Source: Symbiodinium sp. CCMP2592 (taxonomy: Eukaryota > Sar > Dinophyceae > Suessiales > Symbiodiniaceae). From it: 64,000 bases of DNA. The stretch is taken from contig CAJNDT010004001.1 of assembly GCA_905221615.1 (NCBI GenBank), positions 1,458,474-1,522,473 on the forward strand, given 5' to 3'. A program made the translations under genes and the position numbers. How positions within the stretch are numbered: position 1 is the stretch's first letter; each line of letters opens with the position of its first letter. Of the stretch, positions 101 to 50,534 are shown in pieces. The notes under the pieces are model-generated. The model did not search any database. It saw only the letters and a program-made list of their open reading frames with translations, and was not told the DNA's origin.

Positions 101-256
101 GGTGAGGTAGCGGCCACACTGCTCCAGGTCGCAGTGCCAAGCATGCAAGGCATGCACACACGTGTATGTCAAAAGCATGCGCTCCGTCGGGTGTTGCTCA
201 TAGGCCTTGCAGCATTCGTCCGCCAGCCAGCTTGTGATCACTCGGGAGTTGTATGC
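101..256 (-). CDS. Gene B, 3'-most visible exon
   Basis: The minus strand reads AYNSRVITSWLADECCKAYE and then QHPTERMLLTYTCVHALHAW, ending near RYLT before an in-frame stop around 66. The exon joins the upstream exon (400-1130) through a GC-AG intron at 257-399. The bases GCAT occur both at the start of the intron and at the start of this exon. The true 3' end of the exon and gene is not clear and may lie outside the window. It is helix-rich with no recognised domain. Confidence 0.65.
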
Positions 257-399
257 CTCATGTCACCGAACACATTACGGCCACTATGGGTTATAATGGG
301 AAGTAGAATAAAGGGCCATATGGTAGTTAGTAATAGCTCGAGAAGGAATCTAGAACTGAGCACAAGAACTCATCATGAACCATCTTGATGCCAGGATGC

Positions 400-1130: not shown

Positions 1131-1388
1131 CTGCCATATTTATATAACGTCACCTTGAAAACTTTGCCAGTCGATTCTATGCCTCTGTATAATAAGCATA
1201 AACCTCACACCCCTGAACACCTAAACCCAGATCCCAGACCTGCTGGCACCATTATAATAATAATAACCCTAAACCCGAAGCGCTATAAACCTTAAATCCC
1301 AAAACCCAAACCGTTCAAGCTGAATTGTAAGAAGTTCGGGGATAACAGCACCGAAGTGATCACCAACAAAACCGTCTTGCAAAGTTAC

Positions 1389-1692
1389 TGATGTAGAATA
1401 CCAAGATCTTCTCCTTCGTTATTGTATACTCTGCCTCATCACCGTACATGGCCAGTGGTACAAAATCCGTTGAATCGAAGCCTTCCATAAAAGGCGCCTT
1501 TACCTGCTTCCAGTGCAGCCAGAAGCGCTCTGCAGCAGCTCGGTCGATGTTAATCTTTCCGCTCTGAAGCAAGTGGTGTGTCAACAAGTGTGGCGCCAGG
1601 ATTGGAAAACTCATCTCAGTTGTCTCGTCAGACCTTGTTTTGGGATCGGGACGTGCTCGCACCTTGAGCTTGATGCTGTCCAGCGGCAGATC
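1389..1692 (-). CDS. Gene B exon, GDEAEYT motif
   Basis: It starts DLPLDSIKLKVRARPDPK and includes FPILAPHLLTHHLL, ERFWLHWKQVKAPF and VPLAMYGDEAEYT, ending KILVFYI. The upstream GA-AG intron (1693-1826) is flanked by GATCT on both sides. The downstream intron (1131-1388) is GT-AG. From memory, the ...GDEA.YT... segment marks the same expanded dinoflagellate family as the next exon. Only 1389-1692 of copy 1 is joined to its 3' exons; copy 2 is truncated by the gap. Confidence 0.75.
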
Positions 1693-1826
1693 CTCATCAT
1701 AGTTCAACATGCATAGCTTAAGGGAAATATGTTGTGGCCGATAGGAGAAAGCTCACAGCGGGAATCAATAATTCGACAAGGAACCGCTATGTTCTTCGAT
1801 GTCGTGTTGCATTGGCTGCGAAGATC

Positions 1827-1910
1827 TCGCCAGACATTGTTTATGTGTGCACCCCTCGCGCCACATGCAGCCAAGTTCTCTACAGACGCCGGCGTCGCTG
1901 AGCCAAGCTC
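1827..1910 (-). CDS. Gene B exon, ENLAACG...NNVWR
   Basis: An 84-nt, phase-0 exon reading ELGSATPASVENLAACGARG then AHINNVWR. The acceptor is CACAG and the donor is GA (intron GATCTTCG...GATGAG). Continuity with the next exon gives NNVWR-DLPLDS. Where the exon upstream of this one lies between 1911 and 3325 is not settled. Confidence 0.65.
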
Positions 1911-2295
1911 CTGTGGCACCGGCTAGGGATGTTTAAGGGCTCATCGGGTTTCCGGACAAGGGATCTTGTTTGGTGTCTGAGGGGGAAAGGTTTGGCTTCA
2001 GGGTTTAATTAATATTATCGCCGTGGCTTGAATGGGATTTAAATTAGATGGTCAGAAATGACTATTCGACGAAGGAATTCTATCAGTACTTCCCCGATAG
2101 TTATATAACATGCCAACTAGACACCAATCAAGATCTTTAAAGAGCTCGTTGGACCCAGAAGCACGAATCTTTGATTGGAAATCCCAAGTTTCGACCCTGT
2201 GCATTTAAAGCCGACACGAATGGTTACGTGTTTTTGAACCCAGAGCCCTGTAGATCTAATAGGATTCGGGAAGGTAATTTCATTTATCTGTCTCC

Positions 2296-2326
<31 letters not shown>

Positions 2327-2817
2327 GTTGCGACTTCCTTATGAGAACTCTCCCCGAAAAATCGTCAACCGTATCGGTGCTTGGGACCATTTTATAAACG
2401 CTAGCTATACCCAGTACCACGTGACGTTGGAGGGTATACGAAACCCATGATTCCTACAATTTATAATCCGAGGATCTATGGCCACGCAGTCGGCCAGCTC
2501 TTGCGCAGACGATGCACTCCATTCCTTGCGTTGGGCTTGGGCTTGTAATTAGTTAAAGATCGCATTATGAGTAGTATTACCGTCACGAGTCGAGATCCAG
2601 GGCAGTTGCAGGGCAGGGTCATGGGTTCGGGTTTGAGGATGTCATTTCAATCGGTTGGGGGGATAGAGCACTTGAATTTTCATACATAGGGTTACCATAT
2701 ACTACAAAGTTTAGGGTTCTGGGCTCAGGGCCTTGAGGGTTTCTATTTTTATGATTATTCACGGATTAGGGTTTCGGTGGTTGGGCTTCTGGAGTTGAGT
2801 TGAAGTTCAGTCGGCAC

Positions 2818-3310
2818 TTAAAGCTGAGGGTCCAGACGGTGATCATGGTCAGGGTATCCAGGGTTGTGAGTTCGAGTATTTGGGGGTTTTGGCTCAGAGC
2901 GACTATTTTTATTGTGCGAGCAAGCTTCGCCTGAACCAACTCCTGCCAGCAAGCGCTCCCGAATCATTCCCGGGACACCTGCGCAGGAACCAATCGAGAG
3001 TTCTGAGTTCGGTTTGAAATTGTCAGACACAGTTTCACAATCAACGCTCAAGGAATGTGAAGTCGAGTGTTTTTTCTCGCGGCTCATGCGATACACGGTG
3101 ACATCAAGCCCGGCCAAGCGTAAAGGATCCGGATGCACAGCAAAACTATTGCACGCCTTTAAAGACGACTGCTCATGATGCTCTAGCCCGCCTGCAGCCC
3201 CAGACTTCATCATGTGGCGATTATACGAGGAACTGCTATGCAGACAGGTTCTAACAGAGCTTCCACAGTCAGAGGCGTGATCACCCCGTCGGATCCAGAG
3301 TTCACTTGAA
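2818..3310 (-). CDS. Possible gene B exon (uncertain)
   Basis: A long open minus-strand frame contains SELWIRRGDHASDCGSS, HPDPLRLAGLDVTVYRMSRE and ELSIGSCAGVPGMIRERLLA. It sits between exons of gene B that still lack a joined middle, so an exon here is plausible. The plus-strand frame at 2912-3178 is also open, and I found no decisive splice sites. The rest of 1911-2817 shows only a short (TA)n at 2303-2326 and TTTAGGG-like words near 2710-2780. Confidence 0.3.
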
Positions 3311-3325
3311 AAATCTGCCTCTTCA

Positions 3326-3613
3326 GGCAGCCGCTTTGGCCTTCGCGTGGGCCTTCCCTTTTGGGTTGGCCTTTGCTTTCGGGGCCGGACGAATTGCACG
3401 CTTCACCGCTTTCATCTTCTCATCATACATGCTGTAGCTCGCTTTGAGCAACATGTTCAAAGTCCCGATCTCTGAATCAGCCTCCTTTGTCGTGACTGCA
3501 TGCTGAAGCTCGGTGTGCCGCTGCTTCATCAAGTCGATATCAGACCGCATGTCGGAAACCATAGCTTTTGCAAATGCATCGCCCCTGAGCTCAGGAACTA
3601 GCAACCCCACAAC
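3326..3613 (-). CDS. Gene B exon, helical and Lys/Ala-rich tail
   Basis: It starts VVGLLVPELRGDAFAKAM and continues with MRSDIDLMKQRHTELQHAV (helical, coiled-coil-like), YSMYDEKMKAVKRAIRPAPK and a Lys/Ala-rich tail ending KAKAAA before a TGA at 3323-3325. A donor just before the stop is possible, so the gene may continue at 1910. The acceptor CAG-GTTGTG follows a 330-nt intron (3614-3943) that begins GTTGT, the same five bases as this exon. Confidence 0.7.
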
Positions 3614-3678
3614 CTGAAGCCCTATATACTATATAACCCCGGATGATCCCTTCTGAATAATATCCTTCCCCTGCGCGA

Positions 3679-3910
3679 ATGATTTTGAAAAGGTTAGGGT
3701 TTAGAAATTTCGGGGCTTGGGTTTCAGGGTCTACAGGGTTTGGGGGTTTAAGGGTTTGGGCTTCGGGTTTAGGGTTTAAGGGTTTGGATGAGATTGAAAG
3801 GTTAGGGTTTAGAAATTTCGGGGCTTGGGCTTCAGGGTCTACAGAGTTTGGGGGTTTAAGGGTTTGGGCTTAGGGTTTTGGGTTTAGGGTTTAGGGTTTA
3901 AGGGTTTGGG
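3679..3910. repeat. TTTAGGG-derived tandem block inside a gene B intron
   Basis: Two copies of a ~110-bp unit (GGTTAGGGTTTAGAAATTTC..., then GGTCTACAG...TTTGGGGG) run into degenerate TTTAGGG words. It lies wholly in the 3614-3943 intron. The second copy of the locus has it at 19938-20170. Confidence 0.8.
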
Positions 3911-3943
3911 CCCGTTTGGGCTAATCCGTAGGGCTTCGACAAC

Positions 3944-4164
3944 ACGATCCAGTCCAAGGTGCATCCCGCCGTTCTTGAGCATGGCCTCCATGCCGTCTGC
4001 CTCGATGATGCGCTGAGTGCCCTTCTTCAGCAAGTCAAGAGCTTCTTCGGGTGCGGGCTTTGCCTTCTTCTCTTTACGCGGCAGCTTCGGGGGAGGTGGA
4101 GGCGGCAGGTCGTTCGAGCCCGGGTCATTGCTGCCACGTGCACCAGAAGAGGAATCGAGAAGAT
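3944..4164 (-). CDS. Gene B exon, Pro-rich then KKGTQRIIEADGME
   Basis: The frame reads GSNDPGSNDLPPPPPPKLPR, then KEKKAKPAPEEALDLLKKG and TQRIIEADGMEAMLKNGG, ending MHLGLDR at 3944. The 3' boundary is exact (GT donor, phase 0); the 5' boundary is approximate. It is a low-complexity linker followed by an amphipathic helix. Confidence 0.6.
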
Positions 4165-4279
4165 GCGACCTTCATAACGCATTGTTCATTAAAACTTTGC
4201 ATCTAGCTAGGACTTTGAATGTGCATCCTACACACAGTCTACGTTCATAAGTGTTGAACTATTCCCAGGTATGTATCGA

Positions 4280-4408
4280 GGCAAGTCACAAGGCACCCGT
4301 TGTTCCGGCATGGTCCAGACCAACATCGGCATTCATCTGGAACTCCGTCTCACTCTCGGACTCCGTAACCTCCTCCCTGGAGTCGAAGCACTTGAACAGC
4401 TCCCAGTC
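4280..4408 (-). CDS. Gene B exon, acidic segment
   Basis: From acceptor GGCAG at 4409 the frame reads DWELFKCFDSREEVTESESE then TEFQMNADVGLDHAGTT. It is acidic and likely disordered. The 3' end is approximate because an in-frame stop follows at about 4274. Confidence 0.5.
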
Positions 4409-4687
4409 CTGCCATAGGCAACGACAAATTCTTAGGGACCTCCGAGAAACGATAGAATAGCAGTAGCCCCCATAGGACACTGGATCTCATTCCTGGTTAC
4501 TTTTGCATAGGATAATTATTGCATTCTTGCGTCGTCGCTTGTAGCAAGTCAGTGAAGGGATGGTCAGGACTTCGGGATGTCAGTCTAACTACAAGCTTGT
4601 GGGTGCGGTCAATATGATTTCGTTTTGGTACGATTCCTCCCAACTACATTATTGGGGTTTACTTAGGATTCTAGGGTGTCGGCCCAC

Positions 4688-4812
4688 CTCGTTCTTCGGC
4701 TGGTCGGGATGCACCTTCCACCAGCGGCCTCGACCGTCTGGGTCCATGCCTTTCTTGGAAGCACGAATGTCCTCTGCAATCGCCTCTCCATGCCTCGATG
4801 GTTTGGGATACA
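4688..4812 (-). CDS. Gene B exon, HGEAIAEDIRASKKG
   Basis: The 125-nt exon reads YPKPSRHGEAIAEDIRASKK then GMDPDGRGRWWKVHPDQPKN. The acceptor is TTTGCAG and the donor is GAG-GTGGGC. The ...HPD.P... ending matches, from memory, the segment that follows GRYVW in the expanded dinoflagellate family. Entry is 2 nt into a codon and exit is phase 0. Confidence 0.6.
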
Positions 4813-4974
4813 CTGCAAATCATAAGGTTCAAGCTTCAGGGTTTAGGGTTCAAGCATTCAGGGCAAGAAGGCTTAGGGTTCTAAATTTAAGAATTAAGGT
4901 TTATGGATTCGGTATTTGATGTCTTGGGCTTGAATTCTTGTTGCGGATGGGTTGCTCTGTCTTGAGCAGGTCGA

Positions 4975-5169
4975 AGCGTTTCCAAACGTACCTGCCGGTT
5001 CTCCTGGTGTTGTTGCGCTTCTTTGCATTCAGGACAATCGAGCTTTGAAGCCAATCACACCCGCTGCTGATCCACATCTCATACATGTGTCTCATAATCG
5101 AGGATGAGCGCTTCTTCCCATCCTTTGTGAAAGCCTTTTCCCTCACCTCCGGTGGGCAATTGACCGAGC
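4975..5169 (-). CDS. Gene B exon, CPPEVREKAF...GRYVW
   Basis: After the GC-AG intron the frame reads SVNCPPEVREKAFTKDGKK, then MRHMYEMWISSGCDWLQSS and IVLNAKKRNNTRRTGRYVW. The pairing of an FRSL...CPPE block with ...GDW..SSI...GRYVW is what I recall as diagnostic of this Symbiodinium-expanded family. The donor end is uncertain; a GC donor right after RYVWK would keep frame with 4812. Confidence 0.65.
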
Positions 5170-5207
5170 CTGGGATTGGAAAGTTATAGGCTTCGAATTT
5201 CCAAACA

Positions 5208-5220
5208 TAGTAGTAGTAGC

Positions 5221-5270
<50 letters not shown>

Positions 5271-5297
5271 CAGTAGCACAGTAGCAGTAGCAGTAGC

Positions 5298-5376
<79 letters not shown>

Positions 5377-5377
5377 A

Positions 5378-5428
<51 letters not shown>
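5208..5428 (+). repeat. (TAG)n microsatellite, copy 1
   Basis: 221 bp of TAG with a few CAG units and one CACAG marker near 5277. It lies inside the GC-AG intron 5170-5457 of gene B. Read in other frames it gives long poly-Ser, poly-Val, poly-Leu and poly-Thr frames that are not genes. Confidence 0.95.
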
Positions 5429-5429
<1 letters not shown>

Positions 5430-5457
5430 TGCATTCATAAATGTCCAGCCAGAGAGC

Positions 5458-6583
5458 GCAAGCTGCGAAAGCAACGCATGTACGAGTTGTGGGCCTCGCG
5501 AGCCTTGCGTTCCTCTTCGGTCTCCTCCTCCCGATTTGGCTTCGGCTTGGGTGTCACGCGTGGCTCCACGGCTGTGTCGGTCTCCACCTTGCCTGGTGGC
5601 ACTGACTCCTTCGTCTCGGTCTCCGCCTTGCCTGGTGGCACTGACTCCTTCGTCTCGGTCTCCACCTTGACACTTGCTGGCACTGACTCCTTCGTCGAAG
5701 TCTCCACCTTGACACCTGCTGGCGCTGACTCCTTTGTCTCGGTCTCCACGGCACCTGCTGGCACTGACTCCTTCGTCGAGGTCTCCACGGCACCTGCTGG
5801 CACTGACTCCTTGGTCGAGCTCTCCGCTGGCACATCTGCTGGCACACCTGCTGGCACTGACTCCTTCGTTGAGCTCTCCGCTGGCACACCTTCCTTTTGG
5901 GTCTTCTCTGGCAGATCTGCCGGCTCCACGAACTCCGTCTTGACATCCTGCATGTGCACAACTGGCCCGGCCGACTCTGGCCCGGTCTCCACTTGATGCT
6001 CCAGCTGCCGGGTCATGGCCTCAATATCGCAGGTGGCGGGTCTGCGCAGCATGTCTCGGATAAAGCCCGATCGAGCTCCACTCAACTCTGCCGGTTGTTG
6101 CAGCAGCGCCGCAAGGAGGCTTTGAAGAGCCTTGGCTCGCTGCTCAGCCTCCCCAGCTCGGTTCTCAGCCCGACCCGCTCGGTGCTGCGCTGCCTCCACC
6201 TCATCCTGCTCGTCCAGCAGTCGTTCAAGATGCATCTCCAGCTCGTCCGGGCGGTTAGCCGACTTTGGCTGGCCCTCCGCCGACTTCTCCGTCCCCTCAA
6301 CCGATGCCTTCGCTGAAAAGGGCGAGCAGCTCGCTGCGACTCGCACATGTCCGCTTGAAGCATCGGCCTCTGCAGTGGCGGTTGTGCCTTCTGCAGTGAA
6401 CGAAACACTGGCCTTCGAAGCTGGCTGTTCCACCTCCACACGGGGCGGTACGGCAGCGGTAGGCACAGGATCCAACTGCGTTTCCACTTCGGCCTGGGTG
6501 GCCTTGGCTGCCGGTGCCGACTCGGGATCGGGCTCTGAATGTGCGGCCGTCTCAACAGCCGCTGTCGTTGGCGTCTCCACAGA
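5458..6583 (-). CDS. Gene B large exon with VETxTKESVPAG repeats
   Basis: The 1126-nt exon reads from SVETPTTAAVETAAHSEPD to the conserved end NSYMRCFRSLR. Middle: ELEMHLERLLDEQDEVEAAQ and AGRAENRAGEAEQRAKAL form a coiled coil. C-terminal half: about nine tandem units of the type ETSTKESVPAG (nt 5580-5880), followed by Lys/Pro/Glu-rich PKPNREEETEEERKARE. It lies between a GAAG acceptor and a GC donor and keeps phase on both sides. The repeats are GC-biased and alternate V-K-V-E-T with A-V-E-T. Copy 2 differs at two sites, one of which changes Ser to Ala. Confidence 0.75.
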
Positions 6584-6884
6584 CTTCAAGAAGCAGGCAA
6601 CGCCACAGAAGAGTTGCGACCCCTGCCCAAATCGACTTCAAGAAGAAAAAAATATCTAGAAAAACATGTATTGGTAACTATACTATAGCTAGTAGACCCT
6701 ATGTAACACTGTAGGCCTTCTTGATCGCACCATCCGCAGCACACGCGGCTGCACAGATACAGCAGTTCGTTGGATCCTGACAATTTAGTGTACTGAGATG
6801 GTGTTATATTAGTATTGTTATTGCTAGTAGTAGGGTACTAAGCTAGCTGCACTAGTAATCGTACCAGAGGAGGAAGTATGAGAA

Positions 6885-7150
6885 GAAGAAGTAGTAGTAG
6901 TAGTAGTAGTATAGTGCACTACTAAGTAGTAGTAGCAGTAGTACCCGTAGTAATATAGTGGTGGTACTAGTAGTACTAGTCGTCGTAGTAGGAGTAGTAG
7001 GAGAGGGAGTGGTAGTGGTAGTGGTGGTGGTACTGGTAGTGCTAGTGGTAGTGGTGGTGGTACTGGTAGTGGTAGTGGTAGTGGTCGTGGTCGTGGTGGT
7101 GGTGGTGGTGGTGGTGGTAGTGGTAGTGGTAGTGGGAGTAGCAGTAGAGT
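6885..7150 (+). repeat. TAG/TGG trinucleotide-rich minisatellite
   Basis: Imperfect GTAGTGGTGGTAC-type repeats, intronic to gene B (intron 6584-7679). Second copy at 23132-23397. Long Thr/Val frames here are artefacts. Confidence 0.9.
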
Positions 7151-7317
7151 AGCAGGAGTGTGGTATGGTAGTACACCGGAACCTCCCTCGCAATAGGAAG
7201 CCTTGCAATACGATCCCCATATATATATATTTATGTATAACCCTGCTAAACTTTTTGAGCCCACACAAGTCTTTCCCAAGAAGCCCGGCCTGTGAAACCA
7301 GGGTCTGAGGTGAAGGC

Positions 7318-7465
7318 TTAAAGTCGGCAGGATTTGGGGTTTAGGGTTATGAGATCGGGGCCGTAGGGTTGCGAGGTTGGGGGCTCGGGGTTTTACGGTT
7401 CAGGGCTTAGGGTTTTAAGGTTCAGGCTTAAGGTTGCAAAGTTGAGAGCTTAGGGTTTTTAGGTT
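7318..7465 (+). repeat. Degenerate TTTAGGG words
   Basis: Several GGTTTAGGGTT, GGGCTTAGGGTTTT and AGGTTCAGGCTTAAGG variants lie in the same gene B intron. Second copy at about 23563-23710. Confidence 0.7.
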
Positions 7466-7679
7466 GCTTAAATCGATCCTTGGTCTCCTCCTCTAGCTGG
7501 GTGCCGGCGAGATCTTGGGATAGTCCTGGCAACCGGGATCTGTAGACTGTATCTATGTTTTACTAACACATCATCTTCAGATCTGTCCTTTGTCGAGGCT
7601 CAGCTCCGCCATATACTGATTCAAGCTAATCGTAGTCGAGGAATCGGAATGTCGGGGAAAAGCTAGGAAGCCTTGGGAC

Positions 7680-8093
7680 TTCGCTTGCAGTCAAGGACAG
7701 GGATGACACGCTGCGATGCCGCTTGGCATCCGGGGACTTGATGTTTCCGGTGGACATAGGGCTCGGTCCCGGTGCTGCTGGGGCTGCTGCCGGGGTCTTG
7801 ATGCTTCCGGTGGACATAGGGCTCGGTCCCGGTGCTGTTGGGGCTGCTGCAGGGGTCTTGATGCTTTCGGTGGACATAGGGCTCGGTCCCGGCGCTGCTG
7901 GGGCTGCTGGCGGGGTCTCGATCACCGGGGTCTTGATGGGAGGTCGGGCCGGTGTTGCCAACGGGCGAGGGTCGCTGGCACTACCGTCAGGCTTATCCTT
8001 CTTCCCATGTTGCTGCAAAGCTTTATCGACCATTGCCTGCACTCTTGCAGACACTGGTGCAGCCGCAGCTGACATGTCGCCACGCTTCCCCAT
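7680..8093 (-). CDS. Gene B first coding exon
   Basis: The ATG at 8093 starts MGKRGDMSAAAAPVSARVQA, then MVDKALQQHGKKDKPDGS and three tandem 20-residue units of the form KTPAAAPAAPGPSPMSTGSI (nt 7738-7917). It ends HRSVSSLSLTASE at a GT donor. The 138 codons are exactly in phase with the exon at 6583. The start is chosen because it is the first ATG in the frame and follows an AG-containing stretch; longer in-frame sequence reaches 8285. No targeting signal is evident. Confidence 0.65.
7738..7917 (-). repeat. 60-bp tandem repeat x3, coding
   Basis: Three 60-bp units encode the KTPAAAPAAPGPSPMSTGSI repeats of gene B exon 1. Second copy at 23983-24162. Confidence 0.9.
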
Positions 8094-8284
8094 CGTAGCT
8101 ACAGGGCAAATCACGACCGTAAAAGCTAAAAGCAAATCTTTCGAACAACGTGCCAACCAAGGAGCGGTGGATATGGGTCTCGTCAGAACTACACACAACA
8201 AATTAAAGGGCCTGTAGGATAAGTCTAAGCTTATAGGGTCCTGTGGTAGGAGGCTAATCACGTACGGCTTGGTTCCTAGCTGCA

Positions 8285-8412
8285 TGTGTAGTATACAGAT
8301 TCACGCGGTTTCACGCTTTTTCACGCTCTTTCACGCGAGACCTGTGTGAGGATGGTCTTTGGGGATATTTTTCACGCTAGTTCACGCTTTTTCACGCTCT
8401 CTCACGCTTGGC
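8285..8412 (+). repeat. TTCACGC motif array upstream of gene B
   Basis: Eight TTTCACGC/TTCACGC-like words occur in two clusters of four (8300-8340 and 8370-8410), spaced about 10 bp. They lie about 200-320 bp upstream of the gene B start codon on its promoter side. Second copy at 24530-24657. Confidence 0.75.
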
Positions 8413-9409
8413 TCGGGGATCATTATACTGATTATACCGGGGTTCGGTCGATTGTAGGGACAATTTCGTCTCACCCTGCAATAAATACCAGCACATACAT
8501 ACAGTACCCCTGTTTTCCTGGTATAGGGTCCGGGCCCTGTGTAGACACATATGTATCATATATACCCATAACTCTAAAGCTTCGCCTTTATGTCCTTATA
8601 ATATAATTATTATAACCCCAAATGGACTCTCGAAGTGAAGGATCTGTGAATCTAGAACTTAGCAATGGTTCCTGGATTGCTTACCATATATCATTGCGGC
8701 CTCTGGCCACAAAGCAAGCCCCAAGCCCAATGCATTCCCACACGTCGGGGTCACAAGAATATTGAGCCGGGTCTCGGGGTCTAGAGCACATCAGGGTCCC
8801 TCGGAGTCTATAGGGGTATATTGAGTAGGATCTATGATCTAGGGCTTCGGGGCTGGGGGTTCTGGATCTGGGGTGATAATGAAATGCTTAGCCGAAGCCT
8901 TTACCTGGCTACGAATTAGACCATAAATCTGCTACTGCACCGAGGTCTAGAGTCCCACGGAGTCTAGTGGTATATTGAGGGGGATCTAGGATCTAGGGGT
9001 TCGGGGCTGGGGGTTCTTGGAGACTACCCATGACAATCTGAGGTTACTCTTGTTGCCGCATTGCCGATCTTCAATCTCCTTCGGCGGCACCTGGTCCGGC
9101 TGCTTCTGGCCAGCTGCTGGTGCTTGGTTGCCAACCACAAATTTTGGGTTTGGGGGGTGCTGCGCGAGCCCTCGTCAAAATCCCGGGTCTGTAAAGCTGG
9201 TGCAACAAGGTAGTACACAGTGTAGTTGCCGATGTTACACGAAGATCGCACCCCATTCCCATAACAAAATTGCGTGTGCCCGCAAAGCTTCACCACGAAT
9301 CCCAGCAGAAAGCCCGAAATTAAACTATGCCGAACACATCAACACGGACCGTTCGATTATCTAGCCCTGTAACTCTTGTAATCTAACCTATAACATACTA
9401 ACCTATGTA
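8413..9409. other. Spacer between genes A2 and B
   Basis: No supported exon. Two related blocks at 8755-8900 and 8945-9020 share words such as GGGGTCTAGAG, GGATCTAGGATCTAG and GGGGCTGGGGGTTCT, a degenerate ~190-bp duplication. Short open frames at 9017-9364 on either strand have no support. Confidence 0.5.
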
Positions 9410-9865
9410 GAATACCTCCCCAAGAAGCAAAACTCAATTACCCAGTCTAACCTATGATAATACATTCTGGTCTACAATATATAATGTAACCTAACCTATA
9501 CTAACCTATGTAATGGAATACCACCCCAATATATAAGCAAAACTTAAATACCCAGTCTAACCTGACTATATGATAATACATCTAACCTAACGCACTAACC
9601 TATGTAATAGACTACCCTCCAATAAGCAAAACCTAATTGCCCAGTCTAACCTATGATAATACATTGTGGTCCAGAATATCTTATAATAATGTAATCTAAT
9701 ATAACCTATCATATGTAGAATACCCCCCCCAATAAGCAACACCTAATTACACAATCTAACCTATGATAATACATTCTGGTCCACAATATCTAATGTAATC
9801 TAACCTAACATACTAACCTATCTAGAATACCCCCCAACAAGGAAAAACCTAATTTCCCAGCCTTG
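9410..9865 (+). repeat. ~95-110 bp tandem minisatellite (4.3 units)
   Basis: Units start AATACC(C)nAATAAGCAAAACC, continue CAGTCTAACCTATGATAATA and end CTAACCTATGTAGAAT. Units differ by small indels. The array is AT-rich in a GC-balanced region. Second copy at 25655-26110. Confidence 0.9.
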
Positions 9866-10594
9866 TAACCCCACACAATATTATCGCAAGGACATGCTAC
9901 GTGCGTGTTAGAGCCCCGTAGTTCTTACTTTGTAAAATACTGCAAGCTTCCCTTAATCATAAGCAAAGACTAGCAGCCTGTAGACCCCGGCCCAGATTGG
10001 TAGACCTACATAGTTTAAATGCAAGACCTAGCGGACAAACCCACAACCTATGGTGTGGCCTCGTTGAAGAGAAATGTTAGGAGTAGTTTGACCCGGTATG
10101 TGAAGAAACTAAAGACTCTGGTCACCCTAACAACACGAACTGAGATTCGACGGCTTCAGCGAACACTGGGTGTTTGGTGCCTTTGGGTGCCTCTGGTGTG
10201 GCCTGGCCTCTCTGTACTACCTAAGAATTCGAAGTGATGGTGGGGTCAGAGCACATTTGGCTGACTCGAGCATCCCATACCTTAGAAAGGAATAGTCCGC
10301 AAAGGCACCCAATGACCCCGAATTGCTTCGGCAATCAGAAAGGACTGCAAGTCCTCTAGACCAGCAGCGGCCCAGCATGGAAACTCCTTCGTTGGAATGT
10401 CGGGATGAAGGTTTAAGGCTTAGGGTTGGGGTTCCAAATGTTGCAAGACTGGCAGCAGGAGATATGTCAAGGTGCGAGGTTCTGCACTGCATTGGTGATC
10501 ATACCGATGTTCAGCTGGGGTCCTCGTGCTTCCTGGAACAGCATCGGTTCGATGTGATGTGAATGGGATCGACTTCACAATGCAAGATAGACAT

Positions 10595-13500
10595 GGTATA
10601 CCTGCGGCCCGCCTCTTGCCTGTTGTGATCAAGATGCATATGAGCAATTGCACGAGCGAAAGCCCGAGGATAGGCCGCAGTCGTAGATAGTCGTTTCGTG
10701 CCAGTCCTCATGGATATGTAATTTAAGTACTGCTAGATTCTGCTAGATTTTGCTCAGAAACTGGGCCTGGTCCAAACGCGTAGAAAGCAATATCAGCCAA
10801 GGTACACAGCTGCTGTCCGACCCTGGCCGCGATTGACTCTCTTCACCACCGACTTTGCAGCTTCGTGGAAGTCCTTCTTCCTATGTTTAGACATTCGGTT
10901 GCCGATCTTGGGCAGCCACTTCCTTGATTGCAACTGGCGTGGGAAGCCGATGACATCTGCAGATGTTTGCAAGGATGCACATTGGTAGTAAGGCTAGCGC
11001 GAACATCCCATGAGATAGCTGGGTTTCGCATTCGGGGCCCCGTAGAGGCCCATCCAACTCGGATCCACACGATGTACTGTGACTCGTTCTGATCTAGAGA
11101 AGTAATAACAGTCCTAAATGCGTTTCGCAAAAAAGTTAGTAGTTTGATCATGACAAGATGCAACGAGCAAACATCCCATCCAGCATCACATGTACAGCCA
11201 TTCAAAACATCTCTCAAGAATGTGAACAGCGGGATGTGCTTCAGCACACTGGACGCGGGCTGTTCGATAGCACTCCATACCCGGCGGACCGTCGCTAAGT
11301 ACAGGAGTAAGCAGAATCGCGTTGCGATTCGGTTGGCGATCAGAACACCTTGGAGTGGAGCGGATTCTTGGAGTCTTGGGGTTTGGGTTTGCGATAGGGA
11401 CGAAGCAAAAGAACCGATTCAGGCTGTTTGCAGTCGGGAGTCTTGGCTCCAGAGGATTGCCGTATGGGCGTTCGCGAGATCGTTGATGTATTGATTGCGA
11501 AATAAATATCATGTTCGAACAAGGATGCCCGGCCCACAGCAGTCCCCCGGCCCGGATTCGAAGCGTTTTCTTCAAGAGATTGAGGAGCCCCACCGTGGAC
11601 AGGATGTTCTCCTCGAAGGGCGACGTGAGCACGTCGAATGTTGACCTTGCAAACTAATCATATATTCTCATGTACACCCAAGCTACACAGACAGGAGCTT
11701 GAATGCAACCACATGTCATTTAAGAACCCTGCACACGGTGCCCCTGCTCTTCGAAAGCAGCAGCAACACGGCCAACCCCAGAGAAGGCTTCGAGGATCAT
11801 CAAATCCTAAGTTGACCAACGTTCTAGTGTGAGCGAACGTAGAACATCATTCTGATGAGAGCCAATATTGAGGCATCGTCTCGACAGTGCTGCTCGTCCG
11901 CAATGGTCGCAACATAGTGGGCGGCCTGCAACCTCAGACAGGCAGTTACATCGAGCAAAAACCCAAGAAGAACCATTAACCTGGGCTTGGGGAGTGGATA
12001 GACAAGGGTCTAATGTCGGGTTCATTGGCAGGCCTGGGGACTTGGGATCCAGCTTTCAATTGAAAGATCATGGTTTGCTTATAAGTCTGATTGCAAGGGT
12101 CAGTGTGCTAGTCAAGTAACAGGATCGTTGGTACTCCCAATGCCAACAGCATAGCCGCAGCAGAGCCACTCAAAGAGAGCGGATAAACGCGTGCATCCAT
12201 CACGAAGCAGCTCGCAACCCTGATCTGCAAGGCACCGCCGCCCTAGCTGAAGATCGAAGCTGGGCCGCGTGCATGCAAAGAAGACAGCATACATACGAGG
12301 TTGCAGGTTGTCGGGTCTTTCCATGGGATCAAGCAATCACCACCTGAACTGAGACTTGTATGGCATTAATGCAAGGCTTGATTTTGCAATGCGGACAGCA
12401 GCTCTTCGAAGCTCATCTAGGCTAGAAGAGATTCAGAGACCCCGTTGTCGAGAGGACATTCGATGGGATATTGCATGCCATGCATGCGCAAGCCCCGTGA
12501 AGCAAAATCATCAGATCAACCTGGACGGTCCCCGCACTCAAACGTTGTTCCCGACCTTGGAGATATACTCTCGGATAGCCGTTGTGTCACTTGGATCCAG
12601 CCCTTGTGGCCTCTCGAACCAGCCCGCCAACACCATGGACAGCCTCCAACCGTAGTCCATCCCATGTTTCTGCCAGTTGACTGCACAGCCTTTCTTGCAT
12701 TCATTGGCCTGCTCAGATGCGGATTTCAACTAGTCAGAACTGTAACTCAATCGGTGCTGCAACCGTAAAAATACACATAAGTTTACATGTGTGTAGGGTT
12801 TAGGGGTTTAGGGTTTGGGCCAATATATGATTTCGAGTGCATAGTGTATAATAAATGTGTGTGTGTGTGTGTGTGTGTACATGGCAAACGAAGTAGGAAA
12901 CCATGAGTTGAGGCCTGGATTAAGTGCGCTTTTGCGACGTCCACGAACCATTGCTGCTGCTTCATGTGGAGCACGTAGAACCCGTTGTGGTTGGGGAGGA
13001 CTTGCACACCGCTTCCCAAATGGCTGGGATCATGAATCGTATAGGACCTCAGGAAATCCAGTGTAGGAGGATGTCATCGGTTTTCATGCTCTCCAGCATA
13101 TGTCTCAATAATTAGTGCTGCCATAGCTGCTTCTGCTTGAGCTCCGCGGCTGTGGGCATTCTTAGGCCAATGTTGTTCATCTTGTAGAGATCTTTGTGCA
13201 CGTCCGCAACGGTCCGGGTCTGCAGCCAAGTTCACACTCGTGGCGTGTGTGCATGTTGTGCGCGAATCATACACTGGCTTGTCTATATTACGAAATGTGC
13301 CTCCTTCGTTTCGCCACTGTTTTCGGCAGTCGCCTGAGCCCGTTTTGGGCCTTTGGTCCTAGGCTTCCCCGCGTTGCCGGACTCCTTGGTTTGGTCTTCG
13401 TCTGGCACGCCTGTCTCCGGATTCTCGTGGCCGGGCTCCTCGGTTTGGTCTTGGTCTGTCTGCGGATTCTCTGTGTGGCCGGGCTCGTCGGTTTGGTCTT

Positions 13501-13895
13501 CGTTTGGCACACCTGTCTCCGGATTCTCTGTGTGGCTGGGCTCCGTGTCTGCTTGCTCGCCTTCGGGCACTACGCCTGCAGCATCGCTTGTGCCGCTTTT
13601 TTTTTTCCCACGACCTCCACCCTTGCCTCAGATACAGTGAAATGCGACTGTGTGTACAGCAATAACAATATCCATAGCTACACATGCATGATCGAAGTTC
13701 TACAATTAATATGCTGACTCGGTGCCGGCGGCACGTGCCAGCACCTTGGCAGCCTTTTCCTCTCTGGCGTTCTTCTTCAGCTGCTGTTGCTGCTGCAACA
13801 CCGTCAGGTCTGCGTCTGGGCACTGCAATGCCTTTAGTTGCTCGTGCAACGCCTTCTGCGGTGCTGGCACCGCACTCTTGTCCAGCAACTTCTTA
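10595..13895 (-). CDS. Gene A2: multi-exon gene with C5-methyltransferase-like motifs
   Basis: Minus-strand exons, boundaries approximate, in order. 13895-13730: KKLLDKSAVPAPQKALHEQL, Gln-rich helix. 13620-13290: acidic PEGEQADTEPSHTENPETG repeats. 13240-13115: TRTVADVHKDLYKMNNIGLR. 13060-12895: FLRSYTIHDPSHLGSGVQVL and NGFYVLHMKQQQWFVDVAKA. 12725-12540: NWQKHGMDYGWRLSMVLAGW. About 12320-12120 and 12005-11860. 11640-11423: TSPFEENILSTVGLLNLLKK then GGLLWAGHPCSNMIF. 11343-11190: LIANRIATRFCLLLYLATVR then WSAIEQPASSVLKHIP. 11080-10997: WMGLYGAPNAKPSYLMGCSR. 10970-10822: FPRQLQSRKWLPKIGNRMSK. 10712-10595: TKRLSTTAAYPRAFARAIA. The trio GxPCS, IEQP and GxPxxKPS matches the order and spacing of motifs IV, VI and VIII of cytosine-5 methyltransferases. 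That assignment is inference; the spacing is irregular and no target-recognition domain was identified. Confidence 0.6.
12855..12880 (+). repeat. (GT)n microsatellite
   Basis: About 11 GT units, intronic to gene A2. Second copy at 29100-29125, same length. Confidence 0.9.
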
Positions 13896-13999
13896 TCATC
13901 CTGCACATGTACAGACTACACGGTTTGACTTTAGGGCTCACGGTTTCTAAATAGTTTGGGGGTCTGGGATTGTCAGCAATCCCCGTCCCCTCCCCGTCC

Positions 14000-14400
14000 C
14001 CCTCAAATTATAGGAGGAATGTTGAAAGTTTGGGCGTCGAGCCTTCAAAGCAAAATCTCAACCCCAGGCCCAAACCTTGAAACCGTAAATTAACAACAAC
14101 AAAACCCTCAATCAAAGGTCCGGAATCCTTGTTGTACACTTGAAACCCCACCTTAGCAAATCCTTTTGCACAGCGCCCCGAAACCTGTCCAGAGTCTGCC
14201 TTGTGAAGTACATAAAGCACAACTCTTTGGGCAAATATAGAAACACTCGCAACGACGACAGGACTTCTAATACTAAACTCCCAAAATGCTCCGAGGTTGT
14301 GGGTCCTTCTCCGGTGGCGGGGATGCTGGCGCTGGCGAAGGGATTTGCGAATCCTGGAGGGATCCGTCAGCATTAATTCTAGATCTGGATCTGGGTCTTG
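14000..14400 (-). CDS. Possible exon between A1 and A2
   Basis: The minus strand around 14350-14290 reads GFANPFASASIPATGEGP in one frame and SQIPSPAPASPPPEKDPQP in another. Both are Pro/Ser-rich and no splice sites decide between them. The remaining 14400-14960 contains no supported exon. Confidence 0.25.
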
Positions 14401-14966
14401 GGTCTATCCGGTCGAATCACTGGAGCTAACTCGTATACCTAGCACAGTTGTCCCTAAGGGCCCTAGAAAGCCGACCAAAATCTAAAGTCGATCCTTTGGG
14501 ATTTGCGGTTGTGGTCATGAGGCTTTCGGGGTTTTGCGTTTCAGTTGTGGGTTACAAGTTTAGTTGTCATGTTGTACTAGAGTGATCGTCCCGAGCGTGA
14601 TAAACCCTGGAAGCCAATGCCCATTCTTCTCACTTAAACTTAAACCGACGATACCCCAAGACCCGACTCTGTGTATAATTCTTTCGATAAACCACAACTG
14701 CATGAACTATATGCCCAATTTCAATTCGAGCCGGCCTTGTTTAATCTTAATCCAAGTAAGCCCAAAGCCCCCTAACGTCCAAGCCCCTAAATATGTCATA
14801 TAAAGCAACACCTGCACCGAGAGGCAAAAACCCGAGGAAGCTCACATACCTATGTGTATATACATATATACACACACACACACACATGCGTACATACATT
14901 CCCTGATCTTATATAAAATACCCCGAACTCCAACAAGTAGGCAAGCTCCTTTCTGCGATTTGCAAA

Positions 14967-16331: not shown

Positions 16332-16398
<67 letters not shown>

Positions 16399-17159: not shown

Positions 17160-17280
17160 GGCCGGCAGAACTGTGCAATTCGCACTAGTCTCGGGCCCCA
17201 AAACTCTCGCACACAGCAGTGCACAGCTGGCATACGACGGGCACCAACAACGGCAACATCTAATCAAGTACATCTGCAGC

Positions 17281-17302
17281 CAAACACACACACACACACA
17301 CA
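17281..17302 (+). repeat. (CA)n microsatellite upstream of gene A1
   Basis: CA repeat just upstream of the A1 start region; 6 bp longer in the second copy (33541-33566). Confidence 0.9.
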
Positions 17303-17409
17303 GTCATGCATATGCACGGCGGAGGGTGCACCGTCAGCTGACCTGGAACTCGAACCCGCTCGCTGTGAAGCCAGCATGCGTTCTCTGCCCATTGCCAAAG
17401 CACGCTTCA

Positions 17410-17624: not shown

Positions 17625-17651
17625 ACCAACAAAACCGTCTTGCAAAGTTAC

Positions 17652-33417: not shown

Positions 33418-33788
33418 GGCCGGCAGAACTGTGCAATTCGCACTAGTCTCGGGCCCCAAAACTCTCGCACACAGCAGTGCACAGCTGGCATACGACGGGC
33501 ACCAACAACGGCAACATCTAATCAAGTACATCTGCAGCCAAACACACACACACACACACACACACAGTCATGCATATGCACGGCGGAGGGTGCACCGTCA
33601 GCTGACCTGGAACTCGAACCCGCTCGCTGTGAAGCCAGCATGCGTTCTCTGCCCATTGCCAAAGCACGCTTCATTTCTTAAATTTATAGCTAGGATACAC
33701 ACAGCTGCCTCACGAGCAGGTGAGGGCATGAAACGCTTCAGGTTTAAATTTAGTGAGGGCTTAGCATCGGTTGCCTGCTTTGGCAGCT

Positions 33789-42451: not shown

Positions 42452-42564
42452 CTGGGCGTTCTTCTGGTTGGCTCTTAGGACTAACTTTTTGGGTTTCTAT
42501 ATGGACTACAATAAGGGGGCTAAAAGTTTAACTATTGGTAGGAGGGGTTCAGAAGTCAGCCAAG
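42452..42564 (+). mobile_element. Foldback element family A, copy 1
   Basis: 113 bp. Left end CTGGGCGTTCTTCTGGTTGG, right end GGTTCAGAAGTCAGCCAAG. Flanks TAGC and TACT are not a clean duplication, so this copy is older or rearranged. Confidence 0.8.
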
Positions 42565-46533: not shown

Positions 46534-49500
46534 ATGCCGTTGGCGTCAAACTCAGCAGTAGTCGTAATGCTGGAAGGAAGACCCTCCCCAGCGCTAGACG
46601 GCAGAGTGAAAACTCTGGCAGCACAGCATGGCTGCGGGCAGAAAGCGGGCGCGGCCCCAGTAGTGCCTTAGATCCCCAATACCCAACCTTTAAACTTTTG
46701 GGTTCTTGTAGTTTAGTAGGAATCGGAAAGTTTAATCTTTGATTTCTGTGGCTTATTGGGGGAGTAAGGTGCTGATGAGCGAGGCTTGCCGTGCTATGCA
46801 AACCTCGCCAAAGTCGGCAGCAACGGAAGGCAGTATGCCGAGCACTTCGAATTCAATGCTGACTCCTTTTGGGTCGCCCACCGCGAGCGTCGGCATGGGC
46901 ATGGAGGCGCTAGAGGAAGTCAACTTCGAGGATACGAGCCGGGAGGTGCAAGAATGGAAGCCACAAGACTTCGAGTTTCAAAGAACTTTAGAGAGACCAG
47001 GTGGCATTTTGAGTTACATATCTTATTCACGCCGCCTACATGTCAACCTAGCTAGCTAGCTAGCTACCTACCTACCTCACTCCTACTCACCTGCCCATTT
47101 ATATATATATATATATATACACACACATGCACAACATACATGCATGCGTATACATACAGACCTACACGCCTACATTCGTGCATGCATACATCCGTCCGTC
47201 CGTCGGTCCGTCTGTCCGTCCATGCATGCAAAATCACAGATGCATAAACCAATACATGCGTGCATGTATGTTTGCGCAATTTGCAATCGTGTTTGGTTGT
47301 TATCGTGTGTTCTTGCTTCTTTGTTCACTTGTGCTCGTGTTGTTTCGGCCCTGTAGTCAGAGTCTAACGTCGAGCTACCTATTCCTGTCGTGTTGGGTTA
47401 GCTTAACTTAGGGGTCCTTTGAAAAGGTTTTTAATTTTTGGTTATTATAATCCCTAAGAAACAGCTAAAATTATTATTCTTGGCTAGGGTTCTAAGTTCA
47501 GTATAGTTAACTTAAGTTCAATCTTGAACCTTCAGTTGCAATTCGAGGAGAGCGGGTCGCAATCAGGGCACCGTGGACTTAATGAAGCGCATCAACGACG
47601 GCAGCTTCGTCGCAGTCACTGGGCCGTTGTTGAACAACAGGTTTAGGAGTTTAGGATGTGGGTGGTTGTCAAAATTATGGTCCCCTTTTTGGGTCCCTAT
47701 TATAGTACGGCACCTAATATTTAGGGTACCCCAAAAGGGGCCATAATTTTGACATCCGCCCATGTAGTTGCATTGCAGGCCCTGCGCCGAAAAAGGTATT
47801 TAGTTGTGCACAGAACCAAAGCCGCGCCAATCGCATAGAGTTTAGGGTTTTTTGGTGTGGTAAAACTTTGCATCCTTAAGCACGAGGAAAATTGTAAGGC
47901 CTAGGGTTTTTGGGCGTGGTAAAACTTGCATACTTAAGCAGGAGGAAGACAATTTTCAATGCCTCCAAGCGCGACTCAGGTCAAGGTCATGCCAATCTCC
48001 TGGACCTGTACAGGTGCCCTGGGGTAAGTCGCATGTTTCGCTGGCTTTCAGTAGTTAGTGTCGATGATTTTTGGTATGCATGTTCTTCTTATGCGCGTGG
48101 ACCCTTGATTAATGAAAGCTTCTGTTTGGAGGGCATCAGATTCTGTTTGACGAAGGGTCTTTTTATCATGGTCGGCATCAGAGTTCCTACTTGGAGGCTC
48201 AGGGGTAGTTGTAAGTGGTGTTATAAGTCCCCTAACATGGATTATAAGTATAGTTGCCGTGCTTATAACCCTACATGCTTATGACCACCCTAGACCCTAA
48301 GCCCTATACAACCGTTATAGGAATCCTATAACGCTACTTGGAACTACCCATGAGCCTCAAAGTAGCTCCCTGTGAAGGCCACCAGCAGCATCTCCGGGAT
48401 CACCCCGAGGATCCCGAGAATCCTTGGGTGGACCTGGGCATTGTGCCTTTGTCATATGAGCCGTGGTTTTTTCCGCGCTTCTTTCATTATGAGTAGGCCT
48501 GGAAATACGTATGTTGAAGGTTTAGGGTTTGGGGGCTTAGGGTGCAGGGTTAGGTTTTGGGTATCATTTCACATGTTTATGGGTTCTTAAACCCAGCGGA
48601 ATTGTGCCTTGGCATTCTTCTGGTTGGCTCTTAGGACTGTAGTTTTTGAGGTTTCTATACGAACTATAATCAGGGGGCTACACGTTTAACTTTTAGGAGG
48701 GGTTCAGAAGTCAGCCAAGGTGCGGTACCTGAGCAAGAAGGGAGCCACGTTCTTGTGCCACTCGCATGGCATTTTTCGAGATAGCGCGTGGCTGTACTGC
48801 GTCTCCGAATTCGCAACAGACGCTTAGCTAGGCTCTTGAGTAGTACCCTTTTGCCGTTTCCGTTTGGGGTTCTCCTTGTTAGAACTGAATACTCGGGAAA
48901 AGGGTACCCTTACTACTGAGGAACCTAGTTAGTCAGTTAGTAGTCGAGCAAGTAACCTTTGAACTTTTTTGCAGGCAGCAGAAACCGGTCAAGAATCCCG
49001 AAGGTCTGCCTGTCTGTCGTCCCTTGAAACCCTGGAGCCTAAACCATTAAACTCTGAACCCTCAACTTCTCAACGTTAGTATCGAAGCGCCCCCAAGGCG
49101 GGATGAAGATAGGTGAGATGTACCCCAAGCCCATATACAAGGGAACCCTCTTCCTAGCTACCTTCACCCCACTTTTTGATGTTTTTGACAATAAGGAGGG
49201 CGATTTCTTCAGCTTTGTGAGCCGTGGACCGGAACCGGGTCCCCGGAGGGAAGACGCGCTGAGGCCCTTCATGGTGCAGCTGTTCTCGGCCATGAGATAC
49301 TTACCCGTACTTAAAGGATCATGGGACTTAGTAACTAGGGTTATAAGTAAGGTAACTATACTTATAACCCCAATTAAGGCACTTATAACCTTACTTACAG
49401 GGTCCCATGATCCTCCAAGTACTCCAAAAGCACCAGGTTTTTACGGCGATATGTAAAGATTTCGTAACGAGCACGGAGATTTTGGTGGCCACAAGGAGTA

Positions 49501-50534
49501 CTGTAATTAGTAGAGGACGTAACTTTTGTTCATTTCGGGCCATTATCATCATAGTCTTGAGCCTTCAATTCCCCGAAGAAACTGCACAAGCAAGGATATC
49601 TACATGATCACTACATCGCCCACTGCGACGTCTCCATGGAGAACTTCCTGGTCACCAAGAACTCCACGGATGGCCGTCTCGAAATAAAGGTCATAGACTT
49701 TAGCATGGCCGTTGTCGGCGAGAAGCTGATTTGCGGTTATCGCGGGAAGCCTTCCTATAGGGCTCCAGAGATGGCGGTAGCCCCTTTATACGATCCTTTT
49801 CTAGCAGATTGCTTCGGCATGGGAGTGATCCTCTTCTCCGCTGCAGCGCGGACCTACCCGTGGATGTCGACGATTAAGGGCCGATGCAAGTGCTTTGACT
49901 ATGTAACTAGGTCCCGCAGCAAGAGCCTTTTTGCTTCATTAAAACACCTCAGTCGTAGTATTTGCTAGTTAGTGTTGCTATGATTCGAAAGGCGATACCC
50001 ATAGGGGATACTGGAAACCAACCCGCAACCCTAAACCCTCCAAGGTACTAGACCATGGCCACCGAAAGTTTTGGAAGACCAGGAAGATCAAGAAGACTCA
50101 GCCCACTCAAAACGTTCATCAGTGCTTCTCAGAGGAGCTGAAAGTGCTCGCAGAAGGGCTTCTGAGATCTGAAGCACTCAACCTTGTTCTTATAGTTTAA
50201 CAATCTATTTCTGTGTCTTCTTGCGGGAGTTTCGGAGAATAGGGGACGCTGATTAGGATCCTTAATATCAAGACCCCAAAATAATAAAGCTTCCCTCATT
50301 TCGGAAACTCCAAAACACTTATAGAGCCCTTAAAGGAAGCCTTGTGGTAACCCTTTAACAGAGCCCTAAGCCCTACTTTCGGAATCTTCCCTTGTGGAAA
50401 TAAGGCTGCTTGCCCTGGAGCCTTCGGCGCGTCTTTGCATGGAGGAGGCGGTTTGTCACAGCTGGCTCCATGTTGACGAAACCGTGACCCACACTCCCTT
50501 TGGTGGCAAAGCTCAGGGGCACAAGGACGGTTGA
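46534..50534 (+). CDS. Serine/threonine-type protein kinase, 10 exons, 416 aa
   Basis: Exons: 46534-46662, 46769-47000, 47553-47616, 47945-48013, 48597-48603, 48720-48821, 49199-49295, 49595-49902, 50045-50157, 50405-50534; total 1251 nt, one open frame. Residues 1-110 are a Ser/Pro-rich lead ending WKPQDFEFQRTLERP. Kinase landmarks: Gly loop AGRNQGTV (121-128), VAVK with Lys143, VSEFATDGDFFSF, catalytic loop HCDVSMEN (Asp245, Asn250), DFS in place of DFG (Asp268), YRAPE (to Glu292), DCFGMGVILFSAAARTYPW and EGLLALEPSARLCMEEAVCH then SWL. HRD is HCD and the DFG glycine is serine, so activity is uncertain though the catalytic Lys and Asp residues are kept. Donors are GT, GC (48822, 50158) and GA (49296). 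The 47616/47945 junction has no standard donor. Start is the first in-frame ATG; a later one is at 46567. An alternative splice 48023 to 48720, skipping the 7-nt exon, is also in frame. The stop lies in a family B element. Confidence 0.8.
46667..46768 (+). mobile_element. Foldback element family N acting as kinase intron 1
   Basis: The left end CTTAGATCCCCAATA and right end TATTGGGGGAGTAAG are inverted. GTGC flanks both sides (46663-46666, 46769-46772). Removing 46663-46768 (GT...AG) restores CCA GTA GTG CTG ATG in one frame. A related right half lies at 62554-62607. Confidence 0.75.
47041..47235 (+). repeat. Cluster of tetranucleotide and dinucleotide repeats
   Basis: (GCTA)n, (CCTA)n, (TA)n, CATG-rich words and (TCCG)n follow one another inside kinase intron 47001-47552. 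Confidence 0.85.
47656..47759. mobile_element. Foldback element family F, copy 2
   Basis: GGGTGGTTGTCAAAATTATG at the left, CCATAATTTTGACATCCGCC then C at the right, with a 4-bp duplication ATGT. It lies in the kinase intron 47617-47944. Confidence 0.8.
47840..47967 (+). repeat. ~65-bp tandem duplication across a kinase acceptor
   Basis: TAGGGTTTTTTGGTGTGGTA then AAACTTTGCATCCTTAAGCA is followed by a diverged copy (GGGCGTGGTAAAACTTGCAT...). The second unit ends in the acceptor used for the exon at 47945. Confidence 0.7.
48608..48719 (+). mobile_element. Foldback element family A, copy 2, acting as a kinase intron
   Basis: 112 bp, CTTGGCATTCTTCTGGTTGG to GGTTCAGAAGTCAGCCAAG, with GTGC on both sides (48604-48607, 48720-48723). 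Intron 48604-48719 is the left duplication plus the element, GT...AG, and the spliced exons read GGA ATT GTG CGG TAC. Confidence 0.85.
48823..48937. mobile_element. Foldback element family L in a kinase intron
   Basis: CTTAGCTAGGCTCTTGAGTA then GTACCCTTTTGCCG is inverted as CGGGAAAAGGGTACCCTTAC then TACTGAGGAACCTAGTTAG. It starts one base after the GC-donor boundary of the intron 48822-49198. Confidence 0.65.

Follow-up and report, generated by a model that had tools for sequence, protein, structure and literature searches.

The stretch of DNA analysed here, referred to as the window, comprises 64,000 nucleotides of the dinoflagellate Symbiodinium sp. CCMP2592 (assembly GCA_905221615.1, contig CAJNDT010004001.1, positions 1,458,474 to 1,522,473). 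It contains a protein-kinase gene on the forward strand and, on the reverse strand, a region which had been described as one gene, gene B. According to an earlier note on this sequence, the 5' ends of introns in these genes repeat the first four to five bases of the next exon, which was said to fit a gain of such introns by insertion of elements whose 4-base pair (bp) target duplications became the donor. Seven of sixteen placed introns were said to follow this rule. All seven repeats were indeed found in the sequence: GATCT at 1826, GTTGT at 3943, GCTC at 5457, GCAT at 399, GTGC at 46663 and 48604, and GATA at 49296. The list of sixteen introns was not recovered, and the set re-derived here consists of nine introns of the kinase gene and eight introns of the former gene B.

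The joined product predicted for the kinase gene (Table 1) matches Pfam family PF00069 with an E value of 1.6e-29. Its nine introns were placed by means of the reading frame and homology. Among equally good placements, those ending in AG and starting with G were preferred, so that neither the AG ends nor the G starts count as findings; both are assumptions. Introns 1 to 9 share 4, 4, 4, 1, 4, 2, 4, 3, and 3 leading bases with the next exon, respectively. Two of the complete matches, GAGA of intron 2 (46993-47547) and GTCA of intron 3 (47615-47979), had not been listed before. The donor of intron 5 had been assigned to 48604, which is not the exon end supported by homology: according to the kinase paralogs, the preceding exon ends at 48442 (..CTGGGCATT^GTGC, with ^ denoting the boundary). 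At 48604, an inserted element begins with its duplication, and the same four letters are present there and at 48443. The sequences GGCATTGTGCCTTTG (48437-48451) and GGAATTGTGCCTTGG (48598-48612), located at and within intron 5, agree in 13 of 15 letters and are 161 bp apart.

As a control for chance, the introns' own donors and acceptors were paired at random, which retains the preference for G after AG. By this measure, 0.50 kinase introns with at least four leading matches were expected and five of nine observed (p=0.0005). Seven of nine have at least three leading matches, a number not reached in any of 20,000 shuffles. For all placed introns of the window, the corresponding figures are nine of 15 observed and 0.29 expected.

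Table 1 Genes, introns and elements in the window (numbers in parentheses give matching letters between intron start and exon start)
Feature	Position	Strand	Remarks
Protein-kinase gene	46567..50534	+	10 exons, predicted 411 amino acids; joined open reading frame, Pfam, PDB kinases, same-genome paralogs
Kinase intron 1	46663..46768	+	GTGC, then 102-bp element; GTGC again opens next exon
Kinase intron 2	46993..47547	+	GAGA donor (GA); exon repeats GAGA; uninterrupted in L039, L040, L041
Kinase intron 3	47615..47979	+	GTCA donor; exon repeats GTCA; nested inverted-repeat element inside; uninterrupted in L041
Kinase intron 4	48014..48377	+	no 4-base repeat; L039 and L041 interrupted here too
Kinase intron 5	48443..48719	+	GTGC donor; exon repeats GTGC; earlier-claimed donor 48604 internal
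Kinase intron 6	48819..49195	+	GACG / GAGG (3/4); position common to L039; L041 four bases further on
Kinase intron 7	49296..49594	+	GATA donor (GA); exon repeats GATA; nested high-copy element about 49308-49421
Kinase intron 8	49903..50044	+	GTAA / GTAC (3/4)
Kinase intron 9	50158..50404	+	GCTT / GCTG; direct repeat GGCT
Introner copy, intron 1	46667..46768	+	102 bp, family CTTAGATCC..GGAGTAAG
Introner copy, intron 5	48608..48719	+	112 bp, family CTTGGC..GCCAAG, duplication GTGC
CTTGGC element copy	42452..42564	+	duplication 2/4; no gene placement here
CTTGGC element copy	53624..53735	+	duplication CTGG
CTTGGC element copy	57136..57247	+	duplication TATT
CTTGGC element copy	63191..63302	+	duplication TTAT
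Nested inverted-repeat element, kinase intron 3	47660..47761	+	family GGGTGGTTGTCA, duplication ATGT
Gene B intron, GCTC repeat	5170..5457	-	position common to paralog L072, repeat absent there
Gene B intron, GTTGT repeat	3614..3943	-	inverted ends GAAGCCCTA/TAGGGCTTC; donor uncertain
Gene C intron, GATCT repeat	1693..1826	-	homologous paralog introns begin GAT^GT
Gene C intron, GCAT repeat	257..399	-	position common to L075, L076, L077; repeat in none

Introns 1 and 5, the latter counted from 48604, are complete transposon copies of 102 and 112 bp if the first four bases, GTGC, are set aside. Searches of the genome assembly (1.098 Gb, 5383 contigs) yielded 40 scored matches among 2632 first-look candidates for the 102-bp element and 40 among 1786 for the 112-bp element. 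In each case 39 of these were further matches, of which 14 span exactly 46667-46768 and 22 exactly 48608-48719, respectively; for both elements, 32 of the 39 deviate by no more than three bases at either end. Introns 1 and 5 are copies of these repeat families at 87 to 97 percent identity, and five copies of the 112-bp (CTTGGC) family are located inside the window.

Target duplications were counted at the ends of the copies. For this purpose, 29 of 39 further matches of the 112-bp family and 20 of 39 of the 102-bp family were fetched, copies from the window and from earlier loci were included, and partial matches (three and one) as well as duplicate flanks were left out. A perfect 4-bp duplication is present in 23 of 36 readable distinct full copies of the 112-bp family (shuffled mean 1.2) and in 14 of 23 readable copies of the 102-bp family (shuffled mean 0.8). 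For the 112-bp family, boundaries shifted by one base gave none, and no other offset up to six gave more than one; for the 102-bp family, each one-base offset gave one. When both boundaries were slid by up to five bases, the unshifted position was best for both families.

Insertion into coding sequence was also apparent at another locus, L065, where a copy of the 112-bp element with the duplication GTTC interrupts a gene for an RCC1-repeat protein (Pfam PF13540, E=1.5e-14). When the flanks are joined, the motif GDGSVVTW of the repeat is restored across the junction, and removal of the element leaves the reading frame in this gene as it does in the 411-residue kinase. For a further copy, L048 (duplication GTTA), the frame obtained by joining has 285 residues and matches kelch weakly (3.5e-05), below the Pfam cut-off. 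Two more copies with the duplication GAGC, L062 and L068, gave joined frames of 203 and 96 residues without a Pfam family; they were not counted because of this lack and because seemingly non-genic copies show frames of up to 149 residues.

Terminal inverted repeats match in 11 of 14 letters each in introns 1 and 5 and weakly, in 9 of 14, in intron 3; they were not seen in introns 2, 4, 6, 7, 8, and 9 of the kinase gene. Inverted ends were also tried as a test for all repeated introns; of 13 introns tested, only those at 46663, 47615, 48604, and 3943 stood out. The share of cross pairs that were equally good was 0 for 46663, 0 for 48604, and 0.006 for 3943. In this test 48604 was used for intron 5, while the later counts are based on 48443. 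The view that most of the seven listed introns have lost their inverted repeats applies to four of them; the three at 46663, 48604, and 3943 do have matching ends.

Three kinase paralogs from the same genome, L039, L040, and L041, were compared at the intron positions. L040 is uninterrupted across query residues 92-384 and intronless over its match, and L039 and L041 carry some introns. At introns 2, 3, 5, 7, 8, and 9, at least one paralog is continuous and has the corresponding bases only once. The site of intron 7, for example, reads ccatga^GATATCT (ccatgaGATATCT) in L039 and L041 without interruption. None of the three paralogs has introns 2, 5, or 7; L039 also lacks intron 1, the alignment showing a small gap at that site. 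At introns 4 and 6, L039 and L041 are interrupted as well, in the case of L041 and intron 6 four bases further on. At least three leading matches are found in each of the seven introns that L039 or L041 lacks, compared to one and two in introns 4 and 6 (Fisher p=0.028).

Uninterrupted sites could also have been produced by loss of introns from the paralogs through recombination between the direct repeats, which would likewise leave one tetramer. The repeats would then be old and the empty sites derived. This explanation appears extremely improbable, considering that two of the introns are repeat-family copies of the high identity given above, which marks introns 1 and 5 as recent insertions, and that introns 2, 5, and 7 are missing in three paralogs, including the one that is intronless over its match.

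Taken together, the kinase gene was very probably hit repeatedly by introners, with the upstream copy of the target duplication serving as donor. The introners would be short non-autonomous DNA transposons with CT at the start and AG at the end, presumably moved by a transposase, and each insertion would duplicate four coding bases. If the tetramer starts with G, its upstream copy would become intron bases 1 to 4 and provide a GT, GC, or GA donor, the AG with which the element itself ends would act as acceptor, and the downstream copy would stay as the first four bases of the exon. Splicing, as predicted from the DNA, would remove one tetramer together with the element and leave the protein unchanged. 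Later, the tetramer in the intron would mutate, further elements would nest inside and the repeat would fade; such decay with age is suggested by few introns. An origin from elements seems probable for introns 2, 3, 7, 8, and 9 too, and the empty sites of the paralogs would reflect gain rather than loss. In one gene, introns are tied to transposon copies, target duplications, and uninterrupted sister sites, by which the birth of introns may be followed stepwise.

Several observations weigh against this interpretation. Perfect duplications are missing in 13 of 36 copies of the 112-bp family and in 9 of 23 copies of the 102-bp family, introns 2, 7, 8, and 9 have no significant inverted ends, and the extra 161 bp in intron 5 between the near-identical 15-mers are unexplained by a simple insertion model. 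Furthermore, L039 has an intron with a four-base repeat (GAAG) at the site corresponding to intron 6, which indicates that sharing of a position does not always mean absence of a repeat, and in L040, a distant paralog, the sites of introns 4 and 6 are free of introns as well. Finally, coding sequence is not recognisable in L039 directly before the site of intron 3, and the empty site of this intron is therefore based on L041 and the gapped L040 only.

The repeats might alternatively be a general feature of all introns of this organism, caused by preferred splice-site sequences or by some spliceosomal rule and not by insertion. Outside the window, 31 introns were placed, 16 from paralogs and 15 from the gene for PRP8. 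Segments of PDB chains 6zym_A and 6qw6_5A (human PRP8) served as reference for placing the PRP8 introns, and 15 of 16 were used. For L041, 12 pairs were tried, 10 placed, and the nine with an AG end used; the numbers placed and tried were one of four for L039, two of four for L072, two of three for L075, and one of one each for L076 and L077. Rpb1 was considered as a second test gene and dropped, its best match being an uninterrupted frame of 1495 residues. In the PRP8 gene itself (L100/L099, C3902:85001-104999), numerous short exons are accompanied by one frame that is uninterrupted for 915 codons, and behind the gene its 3' part recurs as an incomplete second copy.

At least four leading matches were detected in two of the 31 outside introns, one from a paralog and one from PRP8, compared to nine of 15 inside the window (Fisher p=0.0002). 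None of the nine introns of L041 belongs to this group. A general feature would agree with the high proportion in the window, which includes introns of genes B and C at shared positions, and with four of 15 PRP8 introns having at least three leading matches, somewhat above the 1/16 given by two fixed Gs. In view of the low number outside, of L041, and of the identification of two introns as transposons, it is regarded as very improbable, and the repeat as a general rule for introns is not supported. What emerges instead is a separation of young introners, in which the rule holds, from other introns, in which it mostly does not.

The same introns bear on the proposal that duplications explain the GC and GA donors of dinoflagellates. 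The donors of the 31 outside introns are GC in 15, GA in 10, and GT in six cases, and 21 of the 25 introns with GC or GA have at most two leading bases matching the next exon. As an explanation of these donors at large, the proposal is not supported, although decay of old duplications could hide such a link. The repeat marks young introners; a general explanation of GC and GA donors is not shown by it.

The former gene B appears to consist of two genes, B and C, since there is a stop behind the exon that ends at about 3340 and a second gene begins near 1900. Eight introns were considered in these genes and six placed as GN..AG; of the two dropped, one could not be placed in this way and the other was judged unplaceable from the context and a paralog. 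The four repeats reported for this region are real, and four of six placed introns exceed chance (p=0.003). Their origin by insertion is nevertheless questionable: intron positions of gene B are common to paralog L072 and those of gene C to L075, and no repeat is present in those paralog junctions for which a placement was possible. For the intron with GCTC, the junction in L072 is GTTG/GATC, and for the intron with GCAT, paralog junctions are GAAC/GCCT, GTTT/GCTT, and GATC/GCAT. Alternative donors exist for the two remaining introns. At 1826, three paralogs read GAT^GT where the window reads GAT^CT, and the GATCT repeat depends on a shifted donor, as the paralogous introns begin at GAT^GT. 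At 3943, a GT-AG alternative is present (GGATC^GTGTTG..GCTAG^TTCC). This intron may still be a real insertion scar, because its inverted ends are located directly inside the repeat; its junction in the paralog could not be placed. Weighing these points, including the excess over chance and the inverted ends at 3943, we lean slightly towards chance or shifted placement, and not insertion, as the source of the repeats in genes B and C.

A 16.2-kb segment covering window positions 1362-17524 is duplicated at 17625-33788 with 99.7% identity, the two being separated by exactly 100 N. Genes B and C also have near-identical copies on contigs C4874 and C1433. These duplicates possibly reflect the assembly or haplotypes, and introns in the copies are not independent.

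Downstream of the donor, a second regularity became apparent. CT occupies positions +5 and +6 in seven of nine kinase introns (tail 2e-7). Among all 46 placed introns, from the window and from loci L039, L041, L072, L075-L077, L099, and L100, the motif C[CT]TGG, with no more than one mismatch in five letters, is present at +5 to +9 in 22, against a background of about 3 percent. The end of an introner would be located at these positions. At neighbouring offsets it was detected in seven (+4) and three (+6) introns, and outside the window it is found at +5 to +9 in 12 of 31. The motif was noticed and counted in the same data, and paralogous introns are not independent. CT at +5 and +6 (20 introns) and AG at the end of the preceding exon (15 introns) never occur together, while 6.5 cases are expected (P=1.5e-5); the five-letter motif and exon AG coincide in two of 22 introns (p=0.001). 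The intron end AAG was observed in 10 of 20 introns with CT at +5 and in four of 26 without it (p=0.014). In a simple reading, many introns descend from introners ending in CTTGG..CCAAG, and other, older introns keep the usual exon AG.

The motif may indicate how such introns are recognised. A rather doubtful suggestion is that introners left a displaced 5' splice signal, with the spliceosome recognising C[CT]TGG and cutting four bases upstream. If so, the displacement of four bases would equal the length of the target duplication, positions +2 to +4 would be freed from selection, and GT, GC, and GA donors would be explained alike, even where the duplication has decayed. The complement of the motif, CC[AG][AG]G, was not found in U1 and U5, and the 5' region of U1 is canonical (ACTTACCTG), which speaks against pairing of C[CT]TGG with either RNA. 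The genes for U2, U4, U5, and U1 are carried on tandem units of about 2136 bp (L101-L103, contigs C2929, C3641, and others). GC and GA donors, G after AG, and clusters of U2-U4-U5-U1 genes have been reported for Symbiodinium minutum (PMC4083563). A donor motif C[CT]TGG in dinoflagellates was not found among the papers listed by a literature search, which is weak evidence of absence.

Intron birth of the kind proposed for the kinase gene is already published for a related alga, and the gene is a clear new example without a new principle. The introners of Symbiodinium microadriaticum are described as creating introns by this mechanism (Gozashti et al. 2022, PMC9860276): they have 4-bp target duplications, terminal inverted repeats and their own 3' splice site, and the 5' splice site is derived from the duplication; the example given there spans 115 bp. 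The kinase gene agrees, judged on DNA, in that the 5' splice site comes from a 4-bp duplication and the 3' site is borne by the element. The likeness concerns the mechanism, and here families were followed inside and outside genes, together with empty sites in paralogs and introns lacking the repeat. In Amoebophrya, direct and inverted repeats are described at introns (Farhat et al. 2021, PMC7789003), and its introner elements are alike in having direct repeats of 3-5 nucleotides at the boundaries, inverted repeats of 8-20 nucleotides, and non-canonical introns. In contrast to the introns analysed here, which were placed as GN..AG where possible and occur in a genome with U1, more than 60% of Amoebophrya introns are not GT-AG and share no clear signature of dinucleotides, and no U1 was detected there. 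Recent creation of introns by introners is also documented for Polarella and other dinoflagellates (Roy et al. 2023, according to the review PMC11453091), and identically repeated sequences at intron boundaries were reported for a dinoflagellate (Mendez et al. 2015, as cited in PMC7789003). The mechanism put forward for the window is right for the kinase gene and known in kind, unproven for genes B and C, and unsupported as a general rule.

Further elements are nested in the kinase gene. The family of the element in intron 3, GGGTGGTTGTCA, has a 4-bp duplication in six of eight readable copies. For intron 7, the multi-copy search returned a nested element only, and neither this element (best result three of 16 copies) nor the family at 50530 (two of 10 copies) gave a clear duplication boundary. 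The predicted kinase stop codon overlaps with an inverted-repeat element at 50528-50632, and the last residues of the kinase may be element-derived. Inverted-repeat elements are also nested at 48828-48928 in intron 6 and at 48187-48365 in intron 4; a second near-full-length copy of either was not present among the fetched loci. Viral contigs contained no relatives of two exon proteins. The part of the window from 33789 to 64000 is dense in inverted repeats, with 34 pairs scoring at least 14 compared to none in each of three Markov controls, and harbours several element families of about 100 bp.

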